Of a DNA stretch of 64,000 bases, positions 11,638-55,892 are shown piece by piece; positions within the stretch are counted from its first letter, which is position 1, and each line of letters starts with the position of its first letter. The notes under the pieces are model-generated. The model was not told the origin of the DNA, made no database searches, and saw nothing but the letters and a program-made list of their open reading frames with translations. The stretch lies in contig NC_018025.1 in assembly GCF_000266945.1 (NCBI RefSeq), positions 6,390,001 through 6,454,000 of the forward strand. Direction: 5' to 3'. Source of the DNA: Desulfomonile tiedjei DSM 6799 (GTDB lineage Bacteria > Desulfobacterota > Desulfomonilia > Desulfomonilales > Desulfomonilaceae). Position numbers and translations under genes: made by a program.

Positions 11638-11779
11638 ATAGCAATGTGCGTTCAAAGAAGTAGCATCTGGCAAATCCGGTCCCGGCATGTCTCCGAAGCG
11701 AAGTCAGGCCGTGCCGTTCGTAGCGAAGGAGATTTGGCGGGACCGGCCCAAAACAGATCTCTCAATAGCATATTGGTAT
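11638..11779. repeat. Inverted-repeat (MITE-like) element inside the liv operon
   Basis: Left end ATAGCAATGTGCGTTCAAAG; right end (reverse complement) ATACCAATATGCTATTGAGA. The core is the reverse complement of the 797-961 element core and forms a long GC-rich stem (CCGGTCCCG...CGGGACCGG). It lies in the 214-bp gap between livG and livF, within an otherwise tightly packed operon. Confidence 0.75.
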
Positions 11780-11832
11780 GAGATAGGATACGGAACAATG
11801 GTTGGAACGGGCAAACGAGGTGATCATCCGAC

Positions 11833-13197: not shown

Positions 13198-14070
13198 CTA
13201 GTTCTTGCTCTCAAGATCTCGAGGCCTGGGATTCCTGGCTGCACAGAACTTGAAAAACTCCATGGTGCAGGTATTCGCTCGATTGGCCGGTACACAGAGA
13301 AGATACGGTCTCGTGATCGGGTAGGTTCCTTCGTCGATACTCTCACGGGTAGGAGCTATGGCGGGTGAACGGTCGTCTTTTTTTAGTGCCACTACTTTGA
13401 TCTTCTTGTCCATTCCTTGCTCGATAAGACGCTCCAGATTTCTCATACGAATGAGTCCGATTGCATTTTCGTCTTCTCCTACGGCTGCCGGTATAGAGCG
13501 GAAAAAAGAAACCAATTTTGCTCCTGGAGCGAAATTGCCGTGAAGAAAGTCTTCCGCCAGGTATTTGTGCGAACCCGATCGAACAGATTCGTTTATCGCT
13601 ATGACCTGAACAGGTTTTTCCTGACCGCCCACCTGTGTCCAACTCGTAAGTTCACCCACAAACAGTTTACGCGCCTGATCCACAGTCAAGCTTACGACGG
13701 GATTCGCGGGATTTACTATGACGACTATTCCGCCCCATCCGATTGCGGCTTCCTGCAGATCGAGCCCCTTGGATTTAGCTGCCTCGATTTCCTTCTTTGA
13801 GAGACGGTTACTTATCATGGCTACTTCAGCCTCGCCGCTGAAGAGCGTTTCCATGCCCGATTCGTTGGCTCCGCCACTCACAACTATGGTGCAACTGCGA
13901 TCGGGAGAGCTGAATTCGCCTGCATACATGGTCATGATATGAGCCATGCTTTCAGACCCTCTCACTCGCACAACACCTCTGCCTGACTCGGTAAACCCGT
14001 TTTCACACATACTGAGCGCAAGAAGAAAAGAAAGAGACACAAAACCAAGACCCGTCCACGTTCTGATCAC
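13198..14070 (-). CDS. PstS-like phosphate/solute-binding periplasmic protein
   Basis: A secreted binding protein of the PBP-like (type II) PstS superfamily, about 290 residues. The open frame begins at 14118, but AGGAGG lies five bases before GTG 14070, and from there the protein starts VIRTWTGLGFVSLSFLLAL, a signal peptide. Recognisable stretches are VRVRGSESM, IVVSGGANESGMETL, AEVAMISNRLSKKE, WGGIVVIVNPANPV and LTVDQARKLFVGELTSW, all characteristic of PstS. No pstCAB permease or phoU is adjacent, so it may act as a sensor or orphan binding protein. It is divergent from the unknown 14823 gene. Confidence 0.82.
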   Translation of the reverse strand: MIRTWTGLGFVSLSFLLALSMCENGFTESGRGVVRVRGSESMAHIMTMYAGEFSSPDRSCTIVVSGGANESGMETLFSGEAEVAMISNRLSKKEIEAAKSKGLDLQEAAIGWGGIVVIVNPANPVVSLTVDQARKLFVGELTSWTQVGGQEKPVQVIAINESVRSGSHKYLAEDFLHGNFAPGAKLVSFFRSIPAAVGEDENAIGLIRMRNLERLIEQGMDKKIKVVALKKDDRSPAIAPTRESIDEGTYPITRPYLLCVPANRANTCTMEFFKFCAARNPRPRDLESKN

Positions 14071-14445
14071 AACGTCCTCCTGAGTGCGGCAAATCACCAT
14101 CTTGCCCCTTACGATCACGTAAGATCATTCTTGTACAAGAGAGCGACTGCGCTACACACGCGAGTTTGGTTTTGGGAATCTTCTCGGAAATCTTACCAAA
14201 TCGAAATAGCAAATGGAATGCTAAAATATCGGAGCTCAAATGGCTTAGAAATATGTTGTTCTCGGTTACAACGGTTCATTGAGAGCTTTCCCGGAAGGTG
14301 TGTCGAGTGAGTATCACGCACTAATTCTGTAGCAGTGAATGAAACCAAGTGGTTCGGAATGTAATGTGCGCTGCAATTCCACTCAGCAGGCCACAATCGG
14401 CGTGCGAACTTCGCACCTGTCGGCCACCGACGATTCTCGGATCTG

Positions 14446-14670
14446 ATACTGATTTGCATTCAAAGAGAGAAAATCTGGGAAACCTTCTTGTAACCCCGCG
14501 TCTGGCGGGGCCAGACCCTTCCCAAGAACTTTTAATATTCGCCCAAGCCCATGGTTTTTCGAAAGAAAAACCATGGGCTTGGGCGAGTGCTAAAAGTTTT
14601 TTGGAGGGTTCGGGAACCTTTTTCACAAAAAAGGTTCCCGGATATTACTGCCTTGAAAGCACATTAGTAT
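14446..14670. repeat. Three-hairpin inverted-repeat element, copy A
   Basis: About 225 bp bounded by inverted ends ATACTGATTTGCATTCAAAG and (reverse complement of the right end) ATACTAATGTGCTTTCAAGG. Inside are a hairpin around 14487-14521, a perfect 20-bp stem with a GAAA loop at about 14537-14580, and a terminator-like hairpin CGGGAACCTTTTT...AAAAAAGGTTCCCG at 14620-14650. It matches copy B at 23797-24013 along its length. It lies in the 750-bp divergent gap between the PstS-like gene and the 14823 gene; the rest of that gap shows nothing recognisable. Confidence 0.8.
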
Positions 14671-14822
14671 GAGATGTCCGGGGATCACAGGTCAGAGATG
14701 CCGGAAATCGCAGAGTTTCAAGACATTAGCTGAAATCTGCCCATATTCTCATGGCATCTTAACGAAAAGGTGGTGATGTCCTCATCCAGGAACAAATGCA
14801 AACCCGGAACGGAGAAATTTGA

Positions 14823-17294
14823 TTGGGACTCGACAATTCTGATAGAACGCATCAGTGGCCACTTTCTCCGGAAAAGATCAGACAGGCGCTTGGAGTTCCG
14901 GCCCCGCGAAAAGATGGATTCGTTGAGGAACTTCCGTTCTCGTTCAATGACATTACCGCGGGTTCCGAAAACGAACTTCAAGTGGCTGTCACGGGCAACA
15001 GGTCGCATGTGGATCTTCCCCTGATAATTGAACAGTCCAACTATTTCAGTAATATCCTGAAAAGGACGACATCCGGAGATACCTCGAAACGGGTGCTGAC
15101 GGATCTGGAGAAATTTCTCGATTCCAATACCGATCGGACATGGGAAAACAGTTGGGTACGATTCCCGAAAGGATTACTCGGTCCTTTTGCTCTTTCTGTA
15201 CTCAACTTCGATTTGCTCGCAAACAAGAAGCAAGAAGACGGGGGATTGAGAAACGACACGGAGAAATTCTTCTTTACCGCTGAAGGCGAAGAGTTCCTCC
15301 GGGTTCCCATCAGCTATCTCCTCAAACTCTCTCTTGCAGATATAATCGGATCACAGGAAAACCTTCCTTCACTTATCGGGAATACCGGAAGAAAAGTGAT
15401 GGGGCATCTGCTCAACGATAACACGTCTCCTGAGACGCATTCCTTCCACGTAGTCACTCCCGATGCGACATCCGGCATGGGACATGCCCTGGCAGAAGAG
15501 ACTTCCAAACGCTTTCTTCTTGTGCAGGCCCTCGTCATGTACGCCAATAAGGCATTCAAACTTGAAGAATCCGGCCAGAATGCGGCGATTTACTTCTCAC
15601 CACACCCTCCCGTACGCCAAAAAGAGCTGAACGACCTCATCTCGGATTCCTTCTATCGAGAGCTGTTCATGAGCCCTTGCCTGTCGGGATGGGATGATGG
15701 TGTGGAGAAACACAATTATATGTGTCTCTGTCATCAGGTCCTTAGCCGGAGTCAACTGAATGCAGTGAGCAAGCTGAAGGATGCTGGGATAATCACTCGT
15801 AATCTCGTGGTCTTGCCTTCGGTATCCAATATCAGTCTCGCGAACAATGGAACCCACATAAGTATCGGCAGCCCTAAATTGTCCCGCCACTTGTCAAGTG
15901 GCTCTTCAGAATTCACTGCAATACATGAAAAATGGATCGGCGATCTGGCGATCAAGATCGTTGAGCATTTTTTACCGCTCTTTGTGGGCACGTACAGCGC
16001 AGCTCCTTATCGCCTGGGATTTTCTGATTTTCATCCGGAAAAAGTGCTTGGATTCTTGCCGCACGAATTGGATTACACGCATTTGAGGATGCTCTGGCGC
16101 CGCTGGAAAAAGAAAGCCGATCTGAGAGTGCTCGGCCGCATCTCGACACCCTTCGGAATACCCGGATTGGATGAGATCTTGAGCTCACTTTTTCATGTGC
16201 GGGGTGATTTTGTTCCCGATTTCCGGCTCGTAGATTATCCGGTTTCATTGTTGAGCACTGAAAAAAGCCCTGCTCTTAATGGAATACTGGGAAACGAGCA
16301 GCATCTCAAGAAAGATCTTGCGGATTTGGGCGTGTTCGATCTCAAAATGGCATTGTACATCCCGTACCGTTTACGGGAGTTTTCCCGGATGGGATTCTCT
16401 GGCTTCGAAGGCAGATATTACAGCCTGTTCGCGTCTCTGGAGAGCGACTTAGCACAAGCTGCCGACCTTCAGAGACTCATTACGGCACTGGCATTCAAAT
16501 ACGTGCTTCAGGGAACCTACACTCACAGGCATATACCCGATAGTCCCAATATCGAGAGCGAGCGCAGGCAGGCCTTTTTCGGAACTGCTATCGGAATCCC
16601 CACGTTTTACGTGCACAGCGAAACCACAAATCTCTTCATGAAGAAATTGATAGAGCGAACCAAGGGTGTTCGATACAGCAGACGCTATCCCGGATATCGC
16701 CGAGTGTACATTCGGCAATTTCAATTCGCGCTCCTGGAGACATTGAGACAAGACGCATCCGACTTAATTGAGTTGATGGGCCTGGAAGAAACCATACGAG
16801 ACCTTGAGCATCGGATCCAGGATCCCGAAAAAGCTTCGGTAGCGGGCAGGATTACACAGGCGATTCTTGATGAAGCCGGAAAATCTTCGCCATTGTCGGT
16901 CGATCCCAAGGAGTTCAATCTATCCACTGAACGATACTATCGGGGCACCTTGAGGAGGAATCATCTCCGCGTATCGTTCAAGTGGTTCGAGCAAGACTGT
17001 ATGAAGATGGCTTCCTCCGTGCCGGACGACTCCATACAGCGTTCGCTCCGGTTCGTTTTGGGCTCCATGGATACGAAGCGCTTTCTCTCTTTGATAGAGA
17101 ATCGGTTCATCAACGAAACATTATCGATCGACGACCTGAGGAGACTGGTGAATCTTATCCTCATTTCTGTTCATCTCGACATCGCCACGTCTGAATCCTG
17201 CACACAAGGAACGAAACCCCATGAATTCCTATCATCACCAATACATAGATCGGATTACCGGAAGAGCGTGTACAGAACCGCTCTTATGGGATAA
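14823..17294 (+). CDS. Large conserved-looking protein of unknown function (823 aa)
   Basis: Not recognised. The start is taken at TTG 14823: an in-frame TGA lies directly upstream, GGAG sits eight bases before the TTG, and no early in-frame ATG exists. The protein is soluble-looking, with no signal peptide or clear membrane span. It has no P-loop or kinase signature that I can see. Notable stretches are TPDATSGMGHALAEETSKRF near 210, YFSPHPPVRQKELNDL near 260, GFEGRYYSLF near 540 and a basic run TKGVRYSRRYPGYRRVYIRQ near 625. Its 3' end overlaps the following decarboxylase-like gene by 74 bp, implying translational coupling. Together with the decarboxylase-like and Lgt-like genes it suggests a role in membrane-lipid modification, but no reaction can be named. 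Confidence 0.8.
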   Translation: MGLDNSDRTHQWPLSPEKIRQALGVPAPRKDGFVEELPFSFNDITAGSENELQVAVTGNRSHVDLPLIIEQSNYFSNILKRTTSGDTSKRVLTDLEKFLDSNTDRTWENSWVRFPKGLLGPFALSVLNFDLLANKKQEDGGLRNDTEKFFFTAEGEEFLRVPISYLLKLSLADIIGSQENLPSLIGNTGRKVMGHLLNDNTSPETHSFHVVTPDATSGMGHALAEETSKRFLLVQALVMYANKAFKLEESGQNAAIYFSPHPPVRQKELNDLISDSFYRELFMSPCLSGWDDGVEKHNYMCLCHQVLSRSQLNAVSKLKDAGIITRNLVVLPSVSNISLANNGTHISIGSPKLSRHLSSGSSEFTAIHEKWIGDLAIKIVEHFLPLFVGTYSAAPYRLGFSDFHPEKVLGFLPHELDYTHLRMLWRRWKKKADLRVLGRISTPFGIPGLDEILSSLFHVRGDFVPDFRLVDYPVSLLSTEKSPALNGILGNEQHLKKDLADLGVFDLKMALYIPYRLREFSRMGFSGFEGRYYSLFASLESDLAQAADLQRLITALAFKYVLQGTYTHRHIPDSPNIESERRQAFFGTAIGIPTFYVHSETTNLFMKKLIERTKGVRYSRRYPGYRRVYIRQFQFALLETLRQDASDLIELMGLEETIRDLEHRIQDPEKASVAGRITQAILDEAGKSSPLSVDPKEFNLSTERYYRGTLRRNHLRVSFKWFEQDCMKMASSVPDDSIQRSLRFVLGSMDTKRFLSLIENRFINETLSIDDLRRLVNLILISVHLDIATSESCTQGTKPHEFLSSPIHRSDYRKSVYRTALMG

Positions 17295-18225
17295 ATCGAT
17301 TCAGTTGCTCTATACGGAAGTGAGAGAACACGCACCAATTCTCTTTCGAGCGCTCGTTAGTAGCCATGCAAGTCGTGTTCTCGGATTCGTTAATTTCGAC
17401 CTTCCGATCCCGTATCGAACCAGGCAGTTCATTCATTCCTGTGGAGTGGATTTCACAGAGTGCCTGGATGCTCCTGCCGACCTGGATACTGCCAGGAAAC
17501 TGTTCGAACGCAAGATCCGTTACTGGGAGTGTCGCCCAATGGTTGACGATGTTTCCGCAGTTGTGTCCCCGGCAGATGCACGCGTACTCATGGGGTCGTT
17601 CGACTCAATCTCAAGTCTGTTCATAAAACAGAAGTTCTTCGATTACGACGAACTTCTGGGGCAAGATAAGCAAGAATGGCTCTCGACTTTCCGCAATGGA
17701 GCATTCATGATGTTCCGACTTACGCCGGACAAATATCATTACAATCATACTCCTGTAGCGGGAGAGGTCAAAGATTTCTATGAAATATCCGGCGGATATC
17801 ATTCATGCAACCCGGGAGCGGTGGTTTCGTTGGTAACAGCTTATTCCAAGAATAAACGAGTCGTAACCATTATCGATACTGATGTTCCGAGGGGCTCGGG
17901 CATCGGTCTTGTGGCAATGATCGAAGTGGTGGCGCTCATGGTCGGAGAAGTGGAACAGGCTTATAGCGATAACCGATACGACAACCCCCGCCCGGTGATT
18001 CCAGGAATGTTCCTGGAAAAAGGCGTTCCCAAAAGTCTGTTCAGGCCTGGCAGTAGCACTGTCGTGCTCTTGTTTCAAGAGTCAAGACTGGAATTTGCCG
18101 ACGATCTTGTCCGGAATATGCATCGTACTGATGTTCAAAGTCGTTACTCCGCAGGATTTGGAAAACCGCTCGTAGAAACCGACGTGAAAGTAAGATCCCT
18201 TGTAGGGACTGCTGCACGGGCTTAG
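17221..18225 (+). CDS. Phosphatidylserine decarboxylase-family protein, long form
   Basis: A 334-residue protein of the pyruvoyl-dependent phosphatidylserine decarboxylase family. The catalytic set is visible: SPADAR (D119), KYHYNHTPVAG (H173/H176) and FRPGSSTVVLLF, where autocleavage is expected before a serine of GSST (277-280) to form the pyruvoyl group. The N-terminal ~110 residues are an extra domain of unknown function, as in eukaryotic-type or accessory family members. There is no membrane anchor at the N-terminus. ATG 17221 lies inside the 3' end of the 823-residue gene. The likely reaction is decarboxylation of a serine-type phospholipid headgroup or a related compound; the substrate may differ from phosphatidylserine because a canonical short enzyme is encoded at 23116-23802. 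Confidence 0.85.
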   Translation: MNSYHHQYIDRITGRACTEPLLWDKSIQLLYTEVREHAPILFRALVSSHASRVLGFVNFDLPIPYRTRQFIHSCGVDFTECLDAPADLDTARKLFERKIRYWECRPMVDDVSAVVSPADARVLMGSFDSISSLFIKQKFFDYDELLGQDKQEWLSTFRNGAFMMFRLTPDKYHYNHTPVAGEVKDFYEISGGYHSCNPGAVVSLVTAYSKNKRVVTIIDTDVPRGSGIGLVAMIEVVALMVGEVEQAYSDNRYDNPRPVIPGMFLEKGVPKSLFRPGSSTVVLLFQESRLEFADDLVRNMHRTDVQSRYSAGFGKPLVETDVKVRSLVGTAARA

Positions 18226-18344
18226 TGTTTTGTGGAGTAATCGGGAGAAAAGAGGATACGTGCAATTCCCCCTTTCGGAAAGTGGTTCTGGGTGCATAGG
18301 CCCGGTTAGAAAAGGAGTGTGCGTATTACGTTGGATGCAGGTGA

Positions 18345-18402
18345 GTAGGGGCGGACCTGCGTGTCCGCCCAAATGAGGGCGGACGCATGGGTCTACCCCT
18401 AC
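18345..18402. repeat. Imperfect palindrome between genes
   Basis: GTAGGGG...CCCCTAC outer arms with inner arms GTCCGCCC / GGGCGGAC around an AAATGA loop. It is a REP-like hairpin in the 202-bp gap before the Lgt-like gene. Confidence 0.6.
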
Positions 18403-18427
18403 ACGGAATCGTATAAAGGATTTCCAG

Positions 18428-19513
18428 ATGTTTGAAATTTCATTTTTCTTTTTGTTATTGGTGGTTATGGTGGTTCTGTTCAGATGGGGTTTTGTGGCAT
18501 TGCCTCGTGAGGGGTGGCAGATTATGGCTGTTGTCCCCGTAGCGCAGGTAGATTCACGAACGTGGAAAGGTCTAAATCTCACCTTCTATGGACTCCTGAT
18601 GGCTGTTTCGGTGATTGCTTCGGTGGCTGTCTTCCTGGTGCTCATGGGATCGATCGGCGTATCGCTCTCTACTTCACTGGCAATGATTGTATTCCTCTTC
18701 TCTTTGTGCATCCCCGCATCTTCTTTGCTGGCTCGGGTTGTTGAAAAAAGGCAGAATACCTTTACTATAGGCGGCTCTGCTTTTCTTGGGCTGCTCGTAG
18801 CTCCCGCTGTGGTGTGGATTGTCAATTCCGTGGTAGTCGGTGAATCACCCGGAGCGATTCCCATGATTCCCGGCCTGGCATGCATGGCAATTGCGTACGC
18901 ATTAGGAGAAGGAATCGGGCGACTCGCATGTATAAGCTTCGGTTGCTGCTACGGAAAGCGAATTTCGGAATGCCATCCGATTATTCAACGCCTTTTCGGA
19001 AAATACTCCTTTGTTTTCCAAGGAAAGACAAAGAAGATTCAGTACGAAGGCGGTATGGAAGGCGTACCGGTCATTCCCATCCAGGCTTTGACTTGCACTG
19101 TTTTGGTCTTTACTGCCCTGGTGGGAAGCGGGTTGTACGTAAAGGGTGCATACGTGCACGCTTTCCTGTTTTGTACTATTGCGGCCCAAGCCTGGCGCGC
19201 CATTTCTGAATTTTTACGCGCAGACTATAGAGGAAACGGCAAGATTTCGGCTTATCAGGTGATGGCCGTGCTCGCTATAGTGTACGGGATAACTCTTTCC
19301 AAGCTTCTTCCTGCGGACGACTATCCGGTTCCGGTTCTCTTGAACGGATTGAAACTATTGTGGGATCCTGCATCGATTCTCGCCCTGGAATTGCTTGGAC
19401 TGGTCGTGTTTCTGCATTCGGGTAGAAGCAAAGTGACAGGCGCACTGCTTTCTTTCCATCTCACCTGCGATCCGATTCCTATGATTTCAGAATCACGAAA
19501 AGAAAATGTCTGA
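18428..19513 (+). CDS. Lgt-like (prolipoprotein diacylglyceryl transferase family) membrane protein
   Basis: A polytopic membrane protein of 361 residues with about seven hydrophobic segments. Residues 150-270 resemble the Lgt fold: GIGRLACISFGCCYGK (163-177), then HPIIQ, VPVIPIQAL, and SEFLRADYRGNGKISAYQ (260-277), matching the order seen in Lgt. The canonical Lgt core GRxGNFxN is replaced by a cysteine-containing GRLACISFGCCYG, so it is an Lgt-like paralogue, not a proven lipoprotein acyltransferase. ATG 18428 follows AAGGATTTCCAG. It is the last gene of the plus-strand unknown/decarboxylase/Lgt-like group. It may transfer a diacylglyceryl or related moiety from phosphatidylglycerol-type lipid (inference). 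Confidence 0.75.
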   Translation: MFEISFFFLLLVVMVVLFRWGFVALPREGWQIMAVVPVAQVDSRTWKGLNLTFYGLLMAVSVIASVAVFLVLMGSIGVSLSTSLAMIVFLFSLCIPASSLLARVVEKRQNTFTIGGSAFLGLLVAPAVVWIVNSVVVGESPGAIPMIPGLACMAIAYALGEGIGRLACISFGCCYGKRISECHPIIQRLFGKYSFVFQGKTKKIQYEGGMEGVPVIPIQALTCTVLVFTALVGSGLYVKGAYVHAFLFCTIAAQAWRAISEFLRADYRGNGKISAYQVMAVLAIVYGITLSKLLPADDYPVPVLLNGLKLLWDPASILALELLGLVVFLHSGRSKVTGALLSFHLTCDPIPMISESRKENV

Positions 19514-19639
19514 AGGGATTCTTGTAAGAAGGTGAATCCGGCATTATTTCTTGAATTCACTGGAGACGCTCGTTGGCTCGGGAAGGAATCTGTTTCGGAA
19601 TAAGCACTCAGTCTCTGTAGAAAAAGCCGAAAACCATCT

Positions 19640-19774
19640 TTAAGAACCTTTTATCATTAGTCTGAACCCCGAATCTCTTCAGAGAAATTGGGGTTCAGCG
19701 AATGTCAAAAGTTCTTGTGAGAAAGTTCGGGGAGTCCCGCTAAAAGCAGGATTACAGAAGTTCCTCCCCGACTT
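19640..19774. repeat. Diverged two-hairpin element in a 285-bp gap
   Basis: Hairpin TGAACCCC/GGGGTTCA (19663-19697) is flanked by AAGAACCTTTTAT and AATGTCAAAAGTTCTTG, the same arrangement as around the 20-bp stem of the 14446 and 23797 elements. A second hairpin pairs AAGTTCGGGGAG with CTCCCCGACTT (19723-19774). A further small hairpin containing CTTGTAAGAAG lies at about 19515-19538 just after the Lgt-like gene. The sequence is probably a degenerate relative. Confidence 0.5.
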
Positions 19775-19798
19775 TATACGTGCCGAAAGATCACACCA

Positions 19799-20227
19799 TC
19801 ACATCTGTCTGACGGCAACTCTTTCCTGATATTTCATCTCACTCAGCCCCTGGGTGGCCAGAGCATCTGCTCGCCCGTTTTCCTGGCGTGGAATCCATTT
19901 CAACTTCCAGCCGGGATGCTCTGAGAAAAATCCTCGCATTCTCATAATGATTTCCCGAAAACGGTTGGTGTTTCGCGTGTTCATGAATCCTGTCACCTGG
20001 CCTATCACGGTCCGGCTGTCTCCGTGTATCACCGCGTTATCTATCTCCAAATCACGCAGGTGCTCCACGAGAGCACATAGAGCCAAGTACTCCGCTTTGA
20101 GCGCATCGCCTCGGCCTACAAAACCGGAAGCCTCACACAATGGGTACCCATCGGGATCTCGGATTACGTATCCGATGCCGCAATAGTTGAGAAAACAGGA
20201 ACCGTCGAAGTACGCCTTGCAAGCCAT
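19799..20227 (-). CDS. RNase HI-like protein
   Basis: A 142-residue RNase H-fold protein. The catalytic acidic residues are all present: D8 in YFDGS, E46 in LKAEYLAL, D70 in IHGDSRTVI and D121 in GRADALA. It is of the compact plant/archaeal-like RVT_3 type rather than E. coli RnhA, which carries a basic protrusion. ATG 20227 is chosen over TTG 20233 because GAAGGGG gives correct spacing. It should cleave the RNA strand of RNA-DNA hybrids. It is downstream of the PHP-glycosyltransferase on the same strand, but the 350-bp gap argues for a separate transcript. Confidence 0.85.
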   Translation of the reverse strand: MACKAYFDGSCFLNYCGIGYVIRDPDGYPLCEASGFVGRGDALKAEYLALCALVEHLRDLEIDNAVIHGDSRTVIGQVTGFMNTRNTNRFREIIMRMRGFFSEHPGWKLKWIPRQENGRADALATQGLSEMKYQERVAVRQM

Positions 20228-20584
20228 CTGCAAACCCCTTCAAACGAAGTTTGGAACTAGAGCTGTTCGGTGCTTCAGATTGATTCAGCACAGAAGCATG
20301 TTTAAACGTAAGATGATTTGTACCTTGAATCCACGAGCTGGATAGATGGGAAAGAACCCCACCGAAACCGTGTCGATGGATAGACCATCGAAGGATCGGA
20401 TGAGGGTTCGATCTGGAGCTATGTTGGTTTAACTCACACATTGAAACGGGTTATTGCAACTTTTCCTGTGTACCGCAAGAAGAATTTGCATATTTTTGCA
20501 TCTTACGGTCCGTTAAGTACCCTTTTATTGAACTACAACCCGAGATTGGAAGCGCACCTGTGGACGAATGGCATAAAAACCGAT
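20228..20584. other. Intergenic region, nothing assigned
   Basis: About 357 bp with no supported ORF. A small perfect hairpin TCGATGG-ATAGA-CCATCGA lies at 20373-20391, and the stretch 20390-20420 repeats parts of it (GGATCGGATGAGGGTTCGATC). A small RNA is possible but nothing shows one. Confidence 0.4.
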
Positions 20585-23080
20585 TTATGATGCAGCTCGG
20601 TAGCCCAATGGATCGAATCCCGTCAGTTCTCTGCCATCCTTCGGAGACTGATTCTTCATGGAACCAATCTGTTCGTAGAGCTTCCAAGTCTCGGAAAAAG
20701 CTTTATCAAAAGAGCGGCTCTCTGCAAAAAGTCTCGCCTGTTCTCCCATGCTCTCCATTCGAGCATGATCGCTGATAAGAAATCTCATCCCATTCAAAAG
20801 ACTCTCTTCACTGTTGCCCTTCACCACGAGTCCGGTCTTCCCGGGAATCACATTTTCCTGAGCCCCGCCCTCATCCGTGACAATGACTGGAATTCCTGAG
20901 GCCTGTGCCTCCAAAACCACATTGCCGAACGTCTCTGTGGTGCTTGGAAAAACGAACACGTCACACGAAGCGTAAATATGTTCGAGCGCTGCTCCCTCGA
21001 TGTAGCCCAGAAAGTGAGTATTGGTTCCGGCCAGCAATTGTTCCATCTGCTGACGATACGGGCCGTCCCCAACGACAAAGAGACTGAGATCTTCTCGTGT
21101 GTCGGAGAGTGCTTTGAATGCTCCGGCCAAAAGAGAGAGATTCTTCTCACGAGAAATTCTGCCCACATACAGCAGTCTGATCCGCTCGCCATTCGGGCAA
21201 TAGGTGTCCAAACACTCATTGCGCTTTGCCGGATGGAATCGGTTGATGTCGACTCCCCGCGGGTACAATCGGATTTTTCGTTGAGAAATGCCCTTGTCGA
21301 TGAGTTCCTGTCCCGTGCTCTGCGAAGGGACATATATGGTCTCCAGTTGGTCGTAGAACCACAACACATACTTCCAGATCAGCTCCATCATCAGTGTGTC
21401 TTCAGTGAGAATTTCCGTATACTGAGGAAGCGCAGTGTGATACGTCCCGACTCTGGGAAGGTTTAAGGTTCTGGAAATAGCCAGTGCAGCCAACCCGATC
21501 GGTCCTGGAGTCGCTGCGTGAATATGCGTGAACTCCTGCTCATAACAATAATCCAGCATCTCCAGAAGGGGCGGATAGAAAAGCTTCTGTTCCGGATAAA
21601 CCGAAACATTGTACGTCCCTATTGGCTTGAAATTCTTGATCCGGGGGTGATTCCGAGTCGTTCCCGCCCCGCAGGAAATCACGATGTAGTCTTTGTTCAG
21701 GCGTTCCGCTGCTGCAACCTGTTGCTTGAGTGTATGGGCTACTCCATTGATTTCGTGCAAAGTATCCGTGAAGTGTGCAACTTTTATTCTCTTCTTGGTG
21801 CGTTTCCTGGTTTGATCGGTTCTGAGGAAACGACTTAGGACATCGTCTGCCAGCACTCGACCTTCGGCCTGTACGGAGAAGGAAACGAAATAGGGTGACA
21901 ATAGGGAGTAGAACGCGCCGGCAGACCCAAGATGCTTGAATAAATTAAGAAAATGCGCCCCATAAAAATTCTTGACCACTTCGTCCGCGAATTGCGAAAG
22001 CACTCGGCCGGAAACACCATTTACAATACGGAACCATTTTTCATCGAGATCGGTCTTAGCACCGCTTCCATTTTCGTTGTTTATGACTTCGGCGAGTTGC
22101 GGATCGTTGAAAATCTTGTTTGCTTCAGCCTTGAGGACTTCCAACAACGTTGGGTTTTCCGTTTTCTTAGAGCTGACTCTGTTGCTCCAGTACGCACCGA
22201 TTCTCGCTAGAATGCCACGAGACCGGTCCACTGTATCGGTAACGAGGAACTTGTTGAGAATTCTCAGAATGTCCGGTCCGTTTCCATATCGATCCAGTCC
22301 GAATTTGTGCTCGTAGAATTGATAGGCTATACCATAGAGGTGCCGGGCAAGTGTTTTAGGACCTGACCCCAGAGCATGCGGGTGTGCCTTGCCTTCCTGC
22401 AATCCTTTGAAAAAATCGTTGACAGTGGAGACTCCTTGAACCTCGGTGTAGCTTCGCGCCACGGTCAACGAGCTGTGGTCGTCCGACCCGGAAGTCAGGT
22501 TCTTAATCCACGGAGCCGGATAAGTGGGAACTATTCGGTGCTTTTCACTGAATTGGTGGATCGTTTCCGGAGTCAAGAGAGAAAGGACCAGCCTGATGCA
22601 GTGGTTCTGTTCTTCACTTCTTGCTCCGTTCAATTCGAGATTCTTGAACAGCAGGAGACAGCGCTCGAAATGTTCGGGAGTCAACTTTCGATTGACGGAA
22701 AACAGAGGATGCGCCAATACGTGTACAATGCTCTCTTGCTGTAAATAATCTACCAGATCGTACACGTTTTCACGGATCTTCTGGATATCTTCGTGAATCG
22801 CTTCATTGATATTGTACACAACCACATGCAGCTTGCATCGATCCTCAGGGAAATAGGTCGTGACTTCCTCACTTATGAAGGTGTCTTCCAAATGCCCGAT
22901 TTCAAGGCACCCTTCGATAGAGTTGTGATCCGTAATCGTTACTCGTGTCATCCCTTGCTTCTTCAAGAGTGAATGAAGGTGCAACGGCTCGGTAAAACTC
23001 TCAGGGCAGCCCAGAGTTTTCAGAATCCACTCCGAAGGTCGCCGAGAACACTTAGAATGAACATGCAAATCGATTTTCAT
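20585..23080 (-). CDS. PHP-domain phosphoesterase fused to a GT4 glycosyltransferase
   Basis: A fusion of 831 residues. The N-terminal ~240 residues form a PHP domain: DLHVHSKCS (metal-binding HxH), TITDHNSIEG, and later HVLAHPLFS and GSDDHS, so metal ligands are conserved. Residues ~430-800 are a GT-B glycosyltransferase of family 4: KVAHFTDTLHEINGVAHTLK, YHTALPQYTEIL, PRGVDINRFHP, LLYVGRISREKNL and the donor-site motif PSTTETFGNVVLEAQASG. ATG 23080 has an AAGAGG site. It lies 35 bp downstream of psd on the same strand, so the two are probably co-transcribed and act on membrane lipids. A mannosyl- or glucosyltransferase acting on a lipid, with the PHP domain as a phosphatase, is a reasonable guess. 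Confidence 0.9.
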   Translation of the reverse strand: MKIDLHVHSKCSRRPSEWILKTLGCPESFTEPLHLHSLLKKQGMTRVTITDHNSIEGCLEIGHLEDTFISEEVTTYFPEDRCKLHVVVYNINEAIHEDIQKIRENVYDLVDYLQQESIVHVLAHPLFSVNRKLTPEHFERCLLLFKNLELNGARSEEQNHCIRLVLSLLTPETIHQFSEKHRIVPTYPAPWIKNLTSGSDDHSSLTVARSYTEVQGVSTVNDFFKGLQEGKAHPHALGSGPKTLARHLYGIAYQFYEHKFGLDRYGNGPDILRILNKFLVTDTVDRSRGILARIGAYWSNRVSSKKTENPTLLEVLKAEANKIFNDPQLAEVINNENGSGAKTDLDEKWFRIVNGVSGRVLSQFADEVVKNFYGAHFLNLFKHLGSAGAFYSLLSPYFVSFSVQAEGRVLADDVLSRFLRTDQTRKRTKKRIKVAHFTDTLHEINGVAHTLKQQVAAAERLNKDYIVISCGAGTTRNHPRIKNFKPIGTYNVSVYPEQKLFYPPLLEMLDYCYEQEFTHIHAATPGPIGLAALAISRTLNLPRVGTYHTALPQYTEILTEDTLMMELIWKYVLWFYDQLETIYVPSQSTGQELIDKGISQRKIRLYPRGVDINRFHPAKRNECLDTYCPNGERIRLLYVGRISREKNLSLLAGAFKALSDTREDLSLFVVGDGPYRQQMEQLLAGTNTHFLGYIEGAALEHIYASCDVFVFPSTTETFGNVVLEAQASGIPVIVTDEGGAQENVIPGKTGLVVKGNSEESLLNGMRFLISDHARMESMGEQARLFAESRSFDKAFSETWKLYEQIGSMKNQSPKDGRELTGFDPLGYRAAS

Positions 23081-23115
23081 GTGATCGGCCTCTTGTATGT
23101 ATGATCGAATGCAAG

Positions 23116-23802
23116 CTACTTGAGCAAAATCGTCTCGCCTGCGTAGACCTTATCTCCTGGTTTAACGTTTATTTCGGCATTCTCATGGTCCGGAAAAATC
23201 AGATCGACTTGCGAACCGATACGGATCATGCCGAAGATTTCACCTTTGCCCACCTGGGAACCGGGCTGGAAGTAGCTATCAATTCCATGCACGTTTTTCC
23301 CGGCAATTTGCACTACGTAAAAGGAAGCATCTGCACCTTTGAATCGCCCGGACATCCGTGTCACCACGCGTTCGTTGTGGACAATGTGGAGACTGTTTTC
23401 GTGTAAAGGGTGAACCCCGAAGACAGTGCGCCAATGCATCGGGCCCATATTGAGATTCTCCAATTTTGGTGGATGATGGTTGATACTTTCCACTTTGGCG
23501 GTTATGGGAGCACGGTTGTAGTGGACGTTGAACGGGCTCATGAAGATGCCGATAACAATCTTCGGAGAGTCTGTGTCCTCATGAATGATATCCTCCACTC
23601 TTGCGGCCAGACCTTCCTTGATTGAAATCACTTCCTCACCCGGTGCCACTTTTTTCACGTACACCACCGTGCCGTCAGCAGGACTGACGACGTTTTCACC
23701 CGTTGGTATGACCCTTTCCGGATTTCTGAAAAACCAGACGTACCGCCAGAAAAGGAACGCAGCCAGGAGTACTACAATAGTTGCTATAGAAAACGTTCTC
23801 AT
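23116..23802 (-). CDS. psd: Phosphatidylserine (or archaetidylserine-type) decarboxylase, short form
   Basis: A 228-residue pyruvoyl enzyme that forms phosphatidylethanolamine from phosphatidylserine. One N-terminal hydrophobic segment (4-25) is followed by the short-class signatures: FFRNPER, VSPADGTVVYV (D43), IGIFMSPFNVHYNR (H94) and, near the end, MIRIGSQVDL, with autocleavage at G196/S197. The length fits the PSD-A class of anaerobes. The start codon ATG 23802 lies in the terminal inverted repeat of a neighbouring element, and its ribosome site is weak. It is followed after 35 bp by the PHP-glycosyltransferase. Confidence 0.92.
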   Translation of the reverse strand: MRTFSIATIVVLLAAFLFWRYVWFFRNPERVIPTGENVVSPADGTVVYVKKVAPGEEVISIKEGLAARVEDIIHEDTDSPKIVIGIFMSPFNVHYNRAPITAKVESINHHPPKLENLNMGPMHWRTVFGVHPLHENSLHIVHNERVVTRMSGRFKGADASFYVVQIAGKNVHGIDSYFQPGSQVGKGEIFGMIRIGSQVDLIFPDHENAEINVKPGDKVYAGETILLK

Positions 23803-24013
23803 ATTGCATTCAAGAAGATAAGATCTGGGAAACCCTTCTTGTAAGAAGTGTTTCCCAGTCCCTTCCCAAGAACTTTTAATGTTCGCCCAAGCCCACAGTT
23901 TTTCTATTGAAAAACTGTGGGCTTGGGCGAGTGCTAAAAGTTTTTTGGAGGGTTCGGGAACCTTTTTTACAAAAAAGGTTCCCGGATGTTACTGCTTTGA
24001 AAGCAAATTGACA
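23797..24013. repeat. Three-hairpin inverted-repeat element, copy B
   Basis: About 217 bp, the partner of 14446-14670. It carries hairpin TCTGGGAAAC...GTTTCCCAG with nested CTTCTTGTAAGAAG, a perfect 20-bp stem with a TATT loop at about 23886-23929, and CGGGAACCTTTTTT-AC-AAAAAAGGTTCCCG at 23954-23984. In the long stem two base pairs differ from copy A, both compensated. It fills the whole gap between the methyltransferase stop codon (24014) and the psd start codon (23802). Confidence 0.8.
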
Positions 24014-24769
24014 TCAATGCGGTTGCGTCCAAACATCGGGTTCCAGGATTCTCACCAGAGCGACTCCGGATGAAAACGGGAAATTGATGACCTCGAACGC
24101 TTTTTCTTCCTTTTTCAGGAACTTCAGCCAGCGTTTCACTCCCGCATGAGACAACAACTCGCGGATGTATATGTTGGTGTCATGGAGAAACACGTAGGTG
24201 TTCTTATGCGACTTCGACAGCACACCGAGGAAATCGTACTTGACTGCATCGTACGAATGATTGCCGTCCACAAAGCCGAGATCTATTTCAGGCAATCCCA
24301 GGATGTCATATGCCGGAAAGAATTCGTCGCTGCGCATTTTATGATGCGTGATGATGTCCTCGACGCCGAAGCGACTGAAATGCTCCCGAACATGCGTTTC
24401 GGTCTTCCATTTGCCGCGTCCGCCAACGGTTTTCATGGGACCGTCGTTCGCGAGAGAGTAGGCTGGATCGACAAAAGTGAGCTTGCCCTTGCCATTATCC
24501 TTGATTGCCAGGGCTAGGCACGTCACGCTGAAACCGTATCCCGAGCCGATGACAAGCGTGTGCTTCGGCCTTAATGCCCGTGCGACGGCATAGTAGATGA
24601 AACCGAATCCGAGATTGAGATTTCGAGCCTTTTCATTGTGACCCATCGGTTTGGCGTGCCGAAGAATGTCATTCAGCATATTGTCATTGAGACTGCAAGT
24701 CGTGGAGCGTTCCAAATGTAAACCCCCTGAACCGAGATTGCCCTCAGGCGAAAATTTCTGCGGGGCCAT
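24014..24769 (-). CDS. Class I SAM-dependent methyltransferase
   Basis: A 251-residue Rossmann-fold methyltransferase of the Methyltransf_24 type. Motif I is HTLVIGSGYGFSV (70-82), followed by LTFVDPA, and the post-I region holds LGFVDGNHSYDAVKYDF, typical of O-methyltransferase-like proteins that act on sugars or small molecules. No signal peptide is visible. The acceptor is unknown. It is upstream of psd and the PHP-glycosyltransferase on the same strand, with a hairpin-rich element between, so it may be transcribed separately. Confidence 0.85.
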   Translation of the reverse strand: MAPQKFSPEGNLGSGGLHLERSTTCSLNDNMLNDILRHAKPMGHNEKARNLNLGFGFIYYAVARALRPKHTLVIGSGYGFSVTCLALAIKDNGKGKLTFVDPAYSLANDGPMKTVGGRGKWKTETHVREHFSRFGVEDIITHHKMRSDEFFPAYDILGLPEIDLGFVDGNHSYDAVKYDFLGVLSKSHKNTYVFLHDTNIYIRELLSHAGVKRWLKFLKKEEKAFEVINFPFSSGVALVRILEPDVWTQPH

Positions 24770-24973
24770 AATCCCCGGAAAAGCTTTATTCTTCTTAGAC
24801 TGCCCGGATATTATCTGATTACGAGGAGATCGTTAGTTTCTGATAAGGAAGTGAGCCGAGATGTCCGAAGGACTCATCATCTGAAGTCCCCAAGCTTTCG
24901 ATTTGACAAAGCCGACATCTTACGTTTACGCTCGCGCCTTGAGGTAGGTGTGGTGAAAGAGGAAAGAGCCCGC

Positions 24974-25222
24974 GTAGGATGCTGATGAGCGAAGCGAATC
25001 GCATCTGTGGCCGTTCCACTCCTTAAAAAAGCGCATCCATGGTAAATGTGATCTCGAACCGTAACAATGAGATAATTTTTTCTGATTTCGTGGCAAGAGA
25101 TCCGAGGTTATGATGCTGCTGCCAATCAGGCTAGAAAATGATTCGACAGTTCACCGAATGTACGGGGTGTTGGTGAAAAAAGACTCGACCGATGCGATTC
25201 GCTTCGCTCATCGGCATCCTAC
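24974..25222. repeat. Inverted repeat with 32-bp arms around ~185 bp
   Basis: Arms 24974-25005 and 25191-25222 are reverse complements with one mismatch; both contain GATGAGCGAAGCGAATCGCATC. The internal ~185 bp show no ORF. It occupies the 500-bp gap (24770-25270) before the interrupted membrane-protein gene. Short relatives (GTAGGATGC, GACTCGAYCGATGCG) recur at 28692 and 27874. The remaining gap sequence holds nothing recognisable. Confidence 0.7.
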
Positions 25223-25356: not shown

Positions 25357-26721
25357 CTATAGTTTCGCGATTCTTGCATGGTCGAGTCCGCGCGTGGAGC
25401 GCGGGCCGTTGAGTTTTTCGAACTTATTGATTCGGCTGGCTTTCGAATAAATTCTCAGCGAGAAATGACTCCTTCGAGCTGCTGCCAGCATGTCTGAAAA
25501 GGTGAACGACTTTTTCCGGCAGTACCAGGGAGCCGGGTCGGCAACGAGGTTCTTTGCAGTGACGAATTGCCCAACGAACCAAAGCACTACAAAGCAGTAG
25601 GCCCAGTAAGCAAACATAGGGGCACGGGTTACCGAGGTCTCTTTCCGACACTGAGGTTCAGCCGCACCCAGGAGGTTCTTGGTCTCTCGATTGGTCATCT
25701 CAATGCTAAAGCGTGCAGCGTAGCGCTCGATAATCTGCTGTGGTGCAGCCTGATGGTCCGTATCGAAAAACACCATATTGGCATGGTGGCCGGCCGGGTC
25801 ATGGCACAACACGATCGAAAGAGGCTGTTGCCCTGCGCTATTGATACCATAGCGCCCTGAACTGATGTATCAGGAGCCTTAGTTTGTTTTCCATATCAAA
25901 AGACCCTTAATCTCATTCAACCCCAAAATTGGGTCCTGGAACATCGTTTCCAGGGAGGGCAGTCGAGCGCCTCTCTTGCGAGGTCTGCCCATCACTGTAA
26001 ATGGAGCAGGTTCCAGCACAGCGAACAAAGCTGCATCCTTTCTCAGCCTCCCTGTAATGTGCACATTCTTGGGTCGTGCTTTGAGGATGGTATCGCAGCA
26101 GTATCCCAGGTCGAACACAATTCTCAGTCTTTCTCCCTCTTGGAGCCATGAATGAGTCAGATTTATAAGATCCAATCCAAGTTCGGGTTTTGTCTTGTAG
26201 GGCAGGCTCTTGGGATTAAACTTGGCCTTTGGCGGCCACCAAAGGCGGGCAGCGTATGGCAGACAAAACATGCGATCGCTGATGCCGGGAAGGCGAATCG
26301 CCAGTCCTATGATGACAAAGCACACTCCATACCCCTTTTGCTTAGTATGCTTTGGGAGTGAACCATCATGCTGCCAGCCCGCGCCACAGATCTTCTTGCC
26401 AGTGTGCTTGTTCAAGGTGTCGTCAATCACCACAAGGATCTCGATCCCTTCTGCAATCAGCGTTTCTACCAACATTCTGAAGACGAAATAGGAGACAAAG
26501 TCAGTCTCCCATCGTCCCTTGCCGAGGAATCGGTAGATGCTGGCGAAGTGCTTGGATTCATGGAGTCTCATGGTCAGAATCACCTGGCTGATAGTGTGCT
26601 TGCCCATAGTGAGCACCCAACCGACCACCAGCGCAACGAAGATACGGAAACTCGGTGCGCTGAAACACGCTCTGAAATGAATCTCGTCAATCCCGAACGG
26701 ATCTGGTATAGATCTCTTCAA
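25357..26721 (-). pseudogene. Transposase, copy 1, frameshifted
   Basis: The same gene as copy 2 but with three single-base insertions within about 75 bp (near 25844, 25889 and 25909) plus several substitutions. The upstream part reads to LNEIKGLLIWKTN and stops. The downstream part, with the YREK box, is a separate frame below 25812. The three insertions sum to +3, so the reading frame is restored after the damaged stretch, but a stop lies between. Probably inactive unless the differences are assembly errors. Confidence 0.85.
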
Positions 26722-26839
26722 CTGGCGTTCCTCCTTCCCAGAATCTTTACACAAAACCGGGTATGTGCGGAACGCCTTATTTTTTCAAGGATTATCTCAC
26801 CATCTAACCGTCCAGAATACAAAAAGGGCGAAACTATAG
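25357..26839 (-). mobile_element. Insertion sequence, copy 1 (IS4-superfamily-like, 1,483 bp)
   Basis: Ends are the inverted repeats CTATAGTTTCGC / GCGAAACTATAG. The direct repeat CTATTTTG is present on both sides (25349-25356 and 26840-26847), a genuine 8-bp target duplication. It is near identical to copy 2 (48723-50202) except for a mutation cluster at about 25843-25931 and a few scattered changes. The same orientation as copy 2 makes the pair direct repeats. Confidence 0.95.
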
Positions 26840-40923: not shown

Positions 40924-40953
40924 ATACCAATGTGCGTTCAAAGAAGTAACATC
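40924..40953. repeat. Solo terminal repeat of the ATACCAATGTGCG family
   Basis: ATACCAATGTGCGTTCAAAG followed by AAGTAACATC, the consensus end of the elements at 797 and 11638. No matching opposite end was found nearby, so this is a relic. Confidence 0.65.
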
Positions 40954-48722: not shown

Positions 48723-50084
48723 CTATAGTTTCGCGATTCTTGCATGGTCGAGTCCGCGCGTGGAGCGCGGGCCGTTGAGTTTTTCGAACTTATTGATTCG
48801 GCTGGCTTTCGAATAAATTCTCAGCGAGAAATGACTCCTTCGAGCTGCTGCCAGCATGTCTGAAAAGGTGAACGACTTTTTCCGGCAGTACCAGGGAGCC
48901 GGGTCGGCAACGAGGTTCTTTGCAGTGACGAATTGCCCAACGAACCAAAGCACTACAAAGCAGTAGGCCCAGTAAGCAAACATAGGGGCACGGGTTACCG
49001 AGGTCTCTTTCCGACACTGAGGTTCAGCCGCACCCAGGAGGTTCTTGGTCTCTCGATTGGTCATCTCAATGCTAAAGCGTGCAGCGTAGCGCTCGATAAT
49101 CTGCTGTGGTGCAGCCTGAGGGTCCGTATCGAAAAACACCATATTGGCATGGTGGCCGGCCGGGTCATGGCACAACACGATCGAAAGAGGCTGTTGCCCT
49201 GCGCTATGATACCATAGCGCCGTGAACTGATGTATCAGGAGCTTAGTTTGTTTTCCATAGCAGAAGACCCTAATCTCATTCCACCCCAGATTGGGGTCCT
49301 GGAACATCGTTTCCAGGGAGGGCAGTCGAGCGCCTCTCTTGCGAGGTCTGCCCATCACTGTAAATGGAGCAGGTTCCAGCACAGCGAACAAAGCTGCATC
49401 CTTTCTCAGCCTCCCTGTAATGTGCACATTCTTGGGTCGTGCTTTGAGGATGGTATCGCAGCAGTATCCCAGGTCGAACACAATTCTCAGTCTTTCTCCC
49501 TCTTGGAGCCATGAATGAGTCAGATTTATAAGATCCAATCCAAGTTCGGGTTTTGTCTTGTAGGGCAGGCTCTTGGGATTAAACTTGGCCTTTGGCGGCC
49601 ACCAAAGGCGGGCAGCGTATGGCAGACAAAACATGCGATCGCTGATGCCGGGAAGGCGAATCGCCAGTCCTATGATGACAAAGCACACTCCATACCCCTT
49701 TTGCTTAGTATGCTTTGGGAGTGAACCATCATGCTGCCAGCCCGCGCCACAGATCTTCTTGCCAGTGTGCTTGTTCAAGGTGTCGTCAATCACCACAAGG
49801 ATCTCGATCCCTTCTGCAATCAGCGTTTCTACCAACATTCTGAAGACGAAATAGGAGACAAAGTCAGTCTCCCATCGTCCCTTGCCGAGGAATCGGTAGA
49901 TGCTGGCGAAGTGCTTGGATTCATGGAGTCTCATGGTCAGAATCACCTGGCTGATAGTGTGCTTGCCCATAGTGAGCACCCAACCGACCACCAGCGCAAC
50001 GAAGATACGGAAACTCGGTGCGCTGAAACACGCTCTGAAATGAATCTCGTCAATCCCGAACGGATCTGGTATAGATCTCTTCAA
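48723..50084 (-). CDS. DDE transposase of the IS (IS4-superfamily, IS701-like)
   Basis: A transposase of about 453 residues. DDE residues: VVIDDTLNKHTGKK (first Asp), RIVFDLGYCCDT (second Asp), and the YREK box Y-A-A-R-FSI-E-MTNRET-K with perfect Y-x2-R-x3-E-x6-K spacing. The start is placed at TTG 50084, eight bases after AAGGAGG; a frame-extending TTG at 50117 is the alternative. The TAG stop codon is the first three bases of the left inverted repeat, so the gene fills the element. Its family cannot be named with certainty by eye. Confidence 0.9.
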   Translation of the reverse strand: MKRSIPDPFGIDEIHFRACFSAPSFRIFVALVVGWVLTMGKHTISQVILTMRLHESKHFASIYRFLGKGRWETDFVSYFVFRMLVETLIAEGIEILVVIDDTLNKHTGKKICGAGWQHDGSLPKHTKQKGYGVCFVIIGLAIRLPGISDRMFCLPYAARLWWPPKAKFNPKSLPYKTKPELGLDLINLTHSWLQEGERLRIVFDLGYCCDTILKARPKNVHITGRLRKDAALFAVLEPAPFTVMGRPRKRGARLPSLETMFQDPNLGWNEIRVFCYGKQTKLLIHQFTALWYHSAGQQPLSIVLCHDPAGHHANMVFFDTDPQAAPQQIIERYAARFSIEMTNRETKNLLGAAEPQCRKETSVTRAPMFAYWAYCFVVLWFVGQFVTAKNLVADPAPWYCRKKSFTFSDMLAAARRSHFSLRIYSKASRINKFEKLNGPRSTRGLDHARIAKL

Positions 50085-50202
50085 CTGGCGTTCCTCCTTC
50101 CCAGAATCTTTACACAAAACCGGGTATGTGCGGAACGCCTTATTTTTTCAAGGATTATCTCACCATCTAACCGTCCAGAATACAAAAAGGGCGAAACTAT
50201 AG
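48723..50202 (-). mobile_element. Insertion sequence, copy 2 (intact, 1,480 bp)
   Basis: Inverted repeats CTATAGTTTCGC / GCGAAACTATAG at both ends, nearly identical to copy 1. Flanks are TATAACTA on the left and TCAAGACG on the right: no target duplication. It directly adjoins a 5'-truncated gene on its right side. The transposase is intact. Confidence 0.95.
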
Positions 50203-55524: not shown

Positions 55525-55549
55525 GAATTTCGCTTTTGAATAGTAAAAG

Positions 55550-55583
55550 TTGGTGAATCTTCGTTTGTAGAAAGGTTCACCAA
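55550..55583. terminator. Hairpin after the PIN-TRAM gene
   Basis: TTGGTGAA / TTCACCAA arms with an 18-nt loop, 26 bp after the stop codon. No T-run; plausible but weak. Confidence 0.4.
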
Positions 55584-55629
55584 ACCCTCCAGAAAATTTT
55601 ATCGTGATCCCCAGAGTTAATTATCCAAA

Positions 55630-55735
55630 TGAATATTCAAGAATATGGTGGGTGCCGTGCCTCCGTGCCGGATTATTTTTCGTATGATCAATGATATCGG
55701 CATGATGGACCGGGAGGGGAGAACGTGTCTCAAGA
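55630..55735. repeat. Degenerate copy of the TGCCAAAA element
   Basis: Shares GGTGGGTGCCGTGCCTCCGTG and ATGATCAATGATATCG with the 58174 copy, but both ends are eroded. Confidence 0.6.
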
Positions 55736-55829
55736 ATCTCGAATGTATAAGAAATCGTGGCACGCCCCTACAAGGGCTGAGCCCGCAATGCCGAGATCAC
55801 GTATAAATCGGAAGCATAATACATTTATC

Positions 55830-55871
55830 AAAAAAAACGGGAAAACCCTTCTTGTAAGAAGAGTTTCCCCG
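55830..55871 (-). terminator. Rho-independent terminator of the mvhD-metV-metF operon
   Basis: On the minus strand CGGGGAAAC...GTTTTCCCG, with nested CTTCTTACAAGAAG, is followed by eight T. It lies 22 bp after the metF stop codon. The nested CTTCTTGTAAGAAG motif is the same as in the 23797 element. Confidence 0.8.
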
Positions 55872-55892
55872 ATTTTGCTTCTTTGTAGGAGA

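Follow-up and report, generated by a model that had tools for sequence, protein, structure and literature searches.

The window analysed here is a 64,000-nt stretch of the 6,527,027-base genome (two contigs) of Desulfomonile tiedjei DSM 6799, lineage Desulfomonilaceae, whose relatives by protein comparison include Desulfomonile and other deltaproteobacteria. It contains two copies of a three-hairpin repeat, and both are miniature inverted-repeat transposable elements (MITEs) with terminal inverted repeats (TIRs) of ~19 bp and 3-bp TNA target-site duplications (TSDs). Their structure and mobility are described below, together with the way in which the central hairpin changes from copy to copy.

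Structure of the element and its relatives in the window

Copy 1 is a type I element of 223 bp at 14447-14669 on the plus strand, with TIR matches at both ends and flanked by TGA duplications at 14444-14446 and 14670-14672. Its left TIR (14447-14465, plus strand) matches the family repeat without mismatch and its right TIR (14651-14669, minus strand) with one. Between them, on the plus strand, lie hairpin A (14475-14514), present in an unusual form with its tip replaced by CCCCGC...GCGGGG, the central hairpin B (14511-14614, with arms 14511-14560 and 14565-14614 and a 22-bp inner stem) and hairpin C (14611-14640). Copy 2 occupies 212 bp at 23802-24013 of the plus strand and is flanked by TCA at 23799-23801 and 24014-24016; in both copies the duplications define the ends. 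Its right TIR (23995-24013, minus strand) has two mismatches; the left one is damaged and ~5 nt short, and the TCA duplication at that end was read by eye. Hairpins A, B and C of copy 2 were located at 23825-23858, 23861-23952 and 23955-23984, all on the plus strand. A gap-free alignment of the two copies spans 155 nt, with 92% identity.

A preliminary description of this locus had reported two copies sharing a three-hairpin architecture. Both are present and fold as described (whole-element z = -12.1 and -13.1, 200 shuffles each). The central stem, given there as perfectly paired over 20 bp, is indeed perfect in both copies but longer, with 22 consecutive Watson-Crick pairs in each. As that description had it, the copies differ on both arms at two stem pairs, with T-A exchanged for C-G at one and G-C for A-T at the other, and their loops read GAAA and TATT. 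Its degenerate third relative is real as well: the family profile matched 19631-19776 on the minus strand with 35.5 bits, and a hairpin-A-like stretch with 72% identity to copy 2 was found at 19493-19531 on the plus strand. With ~100 nt between the A-like and B-like parts, this relative was assigned approximate limits of 19490-19790 and an ambiguous strand.

Across 25 copies, the order from the outside in was terminal repeat, hairpin A, central hairpin B, hairpin C and terminal repeat. The terminal repeat reads TACYRATKYGCDTTCAAAG, and hairpin A reads GGGAAACCCTTCTTGTAAGAAGTGTTTCCC in most of these copies, being replaced in copy 1. The outer part of hairpin B (CCTTCCCAAGAACTTTTA / TAAAAGTTTTTTGG) is conserved and the inner part variable, the inner end being T5/A5, and hairpin C reads GGGAACCTTTTTTACAAAAAAGGTTCCC. 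Since the whole element is an imperfect palindrome, searches with it match both strands. Within 800 kb of this genome, 22 end pairings, one of which overlaps another, enclosed three unrelated interiors: type I with three hairpins (~218 bp), type II with one hairpin (~91 bp) and type III (~165 bp), besides one 90-bp hybrid. Hairpins occurred in all three types under the common terminal repeats. A related type III element, with the same terminal repeats, a TGA duplication and a different interior, lies at 798-960 of the window, and a second one, whose right end has diverged, at about 11639-11781. Furthermore, a solitary perfect terminal repeat end was found at 40925-40943, and remnants of hairpins C and A stand ~240 nt apart within 55529-55891 and look like a type I copy into which other repeat sequence has come. 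In a genome from a different family of the phylum (G056), two loci (L236 and L251) showed the A-B-C hairpin architecture with other sequence and no terminal repeat.

Mobility, insertion sites and distribution

The family carries a mobility signature. The TIR pattern with at most two mismatches had 310 matches in this genome and 420 in a congener, and the reversed-pattern control had none in either. The middle base N of the flanking TNA agreed in 16 of the 22 paired ends, which are of mixed types, where a quarter would be expected, and in 22 of 27 type I copies of the congener against 8.3 expected. Moreover, an orthologous empty site exists for copy 2: three relatives (G001, G008 and G011) have 215-218 bp fewer at the junction between psd and a methyltransferase gene, the congener identity over the longer flanking matches being 66-69%. 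The left junction of copy 2 created the start codon of the minus-strand open reading frame 23116-23802 (psd), and its right TCA reads on the minus strand as TGA, the stop codon of the frame 24014-24769 (methyltransferase). The flanking triplet was likewise the exact in-frame stop of an adjacent frame of at least 100 codons in 15 of 56 copies (nine in this genome and six in the congener; no formal null was set), and the other stop offsets ranged from -117 to 48. As the triplet coincides with the stop codon and is restored by the duplication, such an insertion spares the gene. Classified by their longest open frames, 42 copies of this genome comprised 15 flanked by convergent, 16 by tandem and two by divergent frames and four situated within a frame, with one side unknown in five. 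Neither of the two small frames that overlap copy 1 matched a Pfam family with an E-value of 1 or less.

The element is multicopy as well as mobile, neither of which was known to the preliminary description. A similarity search of the genome, in which 40 of 159 candidate places were scored, gave at least 99 matches with an E-value of 10 or less, counting fragments and either strand. A profile built from 40 copies (R1) gave at least 126 matches in this genome and at least 126 in the congener, 108 in G004, 57 in G006, 38 in G008, five in G011 and two in G002; these counts take both strands and hence are not copy numbers. Among the 20 genomes searched, eight matches fell in G056. With stricter filters (E 1e-8), seven of 148 genomes in a phylum sample matched, this genome included. 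No published description of this repeat was found in a search confined to top-ranked, mostly non-subscription papers. Short GATGCTGATGAGCGAAGCGAATCGCATC-like repeats at 24966-25011 and 25184-25222 of the window recurred in G004, G006 and G008.

In a few cases (L003, L171, L175 and L181 in this genome, L191 in the congener), outer inverted repeats flank the copies, as if these had inserted into other hairpins. Strong outer inverted repeats were present around four of 29 copies of this genome, against 1.35% of mismatched flanks; for the congener the figures were one of 27 copies and 1.85%. Insertion into other hairpins thus happens but does not account for the family.

Covariation and inverted tips in the central hairpin

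In 40 copies (29 from this genome and 11 from the congener), 97.4% of cells were paired and 26 pairs showed two-sided changes, the covariation score exceeding all 500 shuffles and all slid controls. In this genome, the cells with two-sided changes were concentrated in the inner stem of hairpin B (120), with three in its outer stem, four in the T/A run, none in hairpin A and seven in hairpin C. One-sided standard pairs were rare in the inner stem. For a larger count, 180 copies were fetched from five genomes and 159 central hairpins were counted. From the 80 copies of this genome and the congener, seven short rows, four with the wrong hairpin and three duplicates were dropped, leaving 66, among which one wrong row (L220) was retained; from 40 held-out copies, three short rows and four duplicates were dropped, leaving 33; and none of the 60 copies from G004, G006 and G008 was dropped, their five short or misplaced hairpins being recounted. 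The inner stem is hypervariable, yet ~95% Watson-Crick paired across the 159 hairpins.

Such strong covariation fits a structured RNA, or a 3' untranslated region or terminator-like RNA, in which selection on the transcript keeps the central stem paired, and so does the position of copies directly behind stop codons and in places where frames converge. A selected transcript, however, should tolerate G-U but not A-C. Inner-stem pairs were called by Watson-Crick extension with an equal penalty for G-T and A-C, and the copies from G004, G006 and G008 and the held-out copies were oriented by the better-scoring R1 strand, which if anything favours G-T. The inner stem contained 752 Watson-Crick, 13 G-T, six A-C and three other pairs in this genome; 544, eight, 13 and 22 in the congener; and 1166, 25, 33 and 18 in G006, G008 and G004 together (2462 Watson-Crick, 46 G-T and 52 A-C up to this point). 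The held-out copies added 587, seven, 14 and 25. G-T was therefore no commoner than A-C over all five genomes (53 against 66). The covariation model proposed in the preliminary description would have given a positive outcome here even if the element had no function as RNA.

The outer stem of hairpin B differs in this respect, with 76 G-T against five A-C in 29 copies of this genome, mostly in three conserved columns. These wobble columns fit a structured RNA and might stem from selection acting on RNA from this strand; as a strand signal for the element they were set aside, as they come mostly from three columns and the inner stem is unbiased. A known RNA family was ruled out, the 17 Rfam matches in window positions 14000-25000 all being sub-threshold; 16 of them were to microRNA models, and 14 of these lay on central hairpins. 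A simple scan found no intrinsic terminator at either copy, non-canonical terminators being outside its reach.

Near-perfect pairing without a G-T preference also fits a DNA hairpin or cruciform selected for transposition, in which point mutation and compensation would take place in master copies. The high copy number and the presence of hairpins in all three interior types sharing terminal repeats agree with this possibility, which we nevertheless consider rather unlikely. In the congener, one imperfect stem was common to five copies and one A-C mismatch to six. The inserted copies L002 and L004 carry a one-armed intermediate, a C-A mismatch, at a stem position that the preliminary description had singled out. 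Since sub-families with shared stem imperfections have spread, perfect pairing is not needed for movement. Their spread with common, unrepaired imperfections also speaks against selection on a transcript.

The loops provided a second line of evidence. Copies of one genome were compared where their arms were similar and their loops equally long. In the 259 resulting pairs, which are not independent and go back to seven distinct loop pairs, the loop was the same in 35, the reverse complement in 26, reversed in none and complemented in one. Held-out copies of the congener, which added two further distinct loop pairs, had reverse-complement loops in five of 78 comparisons among themselves and in eight of 51 with the earlier copies, and reversed or complemented loops in none; the three held-out pairs of this genome included no reverse-complement loop. 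Exactly flipped loops in this genome were those of L006 against five copies and of L021 against L018. In several pairs of G006, whole tips were inverted while the flanks stood in direct orientation. For L197 and L205, the flanks were identical at 161 of 169 positions in direct orientation, and the tips were five edits apart directly but only one when inverted. Corresponding values were 147 of 160 with seven and two edits for L206 and L194, and 151 and 150 of 158 with seven and two edits for L380 against L404 and L407. L386 and the more diverged L226 belong to the inverted tip form. Where flanks were clearly direct, agreeing versus inverted tips stood at 19/27 in G006 and 10/13 in G004, with many one-edit differences, and G008 offered no usable pair. 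As many differences between nearest neighbours amount to one edit, nearest-neighbour evidence was not relied on, and tip inversion was judged by the reversed and complemented loop controls and the flank-oriented comparisons instead. Tips were identical in two of 328 close pairs of this genome for hairpin B, 217 for A and 79 for C; for A and C only the identical counts were used, because their rows include misplaced windows (edit distance above 13).

Flipping loops and tips would alter any loop-dependent function of an RNA. The lack of a G-T preference in the inner stem and the inverted loops and tips together favour rewriting at the DNA level over selection on RNA, and we regard a transcript as the cause of the central-stem pairing as improbable. 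Selection for a DNA hairpin, taken alone, likewise leaves the exact reverse-complement loops and inverted tips unexplained. The preliminary description had attributed the structure to selection or to copying that equalises the arms. Its maintained pairing stands, and of its two causes the detailed pattern favours copying at the DNA level.

Proposed rewriting of the central hairpin and comparison with known systems

The family is probably one of MITEs whose central inner stem and loop are rewritten at the DNA level, most likely by template switching. One arm of the central hairpin would be copied from the other, or the tip would be flipped as a whole, most likely during replication of the palindrome; compensated base changes and reverse-complement loops could then arise without selection on RNA. 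Arm homogenisation and spacer inversion are the published footprint of template switching (PMC8604942 and PMC8794818). Both were found in the central hairpins, and the pattern there thus matches the equal arms and inverted spacers that template switching predicts. Arm-to-arm recombination and repair of an extruded cruciform leave similar traces, and the naming of replication template switching as the agent, in preference to other arm-to-arm recombination, is accordingly suggested rather than dictated by the pattern. It is conceivable, though on balance doubtful, that inverted-arm recombination or mismatch repair in an extruded cruciform flips the tip and equalises the arms. An identical footprint is predicted in that case, and in copy 2, compared with the common state of the sub-family, mismatches next to each other seem to have been resolved in opposite directions. 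Against it, the arms measure only ~13-22 bp. Quite unlikely, in our estimation, is a dedicated self-complementary variable segment, a DNA diversification tied to the mobile element, whose tip would be opened, rewritten and resealed during movement or replication, for example by a nuclease that cleaves hairpins together with fold-back synthesis; new lineages would in this way gain new tips that are nearly always self-paired.

Several observations weigh against rewriting by template switching in a mobile family. Among close pairs of this genome (flanks at least 90% alike), B tips fitting directly outnumbered inverted ones, 57 against 28 (by at least two edits), the rest being ties, and so they did at 88/29 in G001, 29/14 in G006, 4/0 in G004 and 2/0 in G008 by the same margin; clean whole-tip inversions were best seen in relatives. 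Copies were compared at different loci, with one genome per species, so that no rewriting event was followed in place. Conservation is much stronger in hairpins A and C than in B, which indicates some constraint on the former two. In this genome alone, G-T exceeded A-C in the inner stem by 13 to 6 (p=0.17), and the outer stem shows its excess of wobbles. The type I copies of this genome as a set showed no TSD signal (7 of 29 against 7.3 expected), and agreement was five of 12 where both repeats were clean; these copies are probably older or recombined. Finally, the search for a transposase with these terminal repeats, which covered the families PF13359, PF01609 and PF13340, had a negative outcome.

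For this last search, PF13359 and PF01609 were sought in six genomes and PF13340 in ten. For PF13359 the only match was a weak one, in the congener. The six genomes held 64 matches to PF01609, and 30 of 34 in this genome and 23 of 30 in the others were scanned for ends. Neither this genome nor the congener yielded a match to PF13340, and all 11 of its loci were scanned. In the 65 loci scanned for ends, a few insertion sequences that are themselves multi-copy had one copy enclosed by family repeats (L292, L415 and L425 in this genome) but their sister copies were not, which is read as insertion of the sequence into or beside an element. At L292 and L425, two such insertion sequences, with one copy each, are bracketed by family terminal repeats that face outward and stand ~2 kb apart. 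L272 and L283, in relatives, were rejected as an autonomous element, their end pairs being weak (4+4 and 5+3 mismatches) and not enclosing the whole match. In the window, two nearly identical IS701-type insertion sequences lie at 25357-26754 and 48723-50117; in the first, the coding region is divided between two reading frames.

When repeats covary, this is commonly taken as proof of functional RNA. Here, well over 100 natural copies combine strong covariation and loop and tip inversions with no G-T preference in the inner stem, which points to DNA-level rewriting. The family is a caution for automated RNA discovery and offers a natural test bed for whether template switching, beyond selection alone, yields compensatory changes.

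To our knowledge, the Correia/NEMIS, RUP, BOX, ERIC, YPAL and other bacterial MITEs differ from this family, in which the three hairpins stand apart and the central one is hypervariable, one terminal repeat goes with three unrelated interiors, and tip inversions occur. The likeness to bacterial MITEs (PMC2229807 and PMC10969869) lies in short length, TIRs, target duplication, many intergenic copies and stem-loops, and in the overlapping frames of copy 1 that belong to no protein family. According to PMC12016507, TNA is the target duplication of the IS1031 group of the IS5 family, a 3-bp duplication that this element shares, whereas the ISLrh terminal repeat as printed there differs by eye from that of this element. 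We infer that an IS5/IS1031-like transposase moves the element. Like the template-switch mutations in hairpins treated in PMC8794818 and PMC8604942, the central hairpins show arm homogenisation, multi-base compensated changes and inverted loops; those accounts concern rRNA genes and yeast coding sequences, whereas here a repeat family is affected. In the rRNA study, a compensated change together with loop inversion was described as extremely rare, whereas inverted tips recur in this repeat family.

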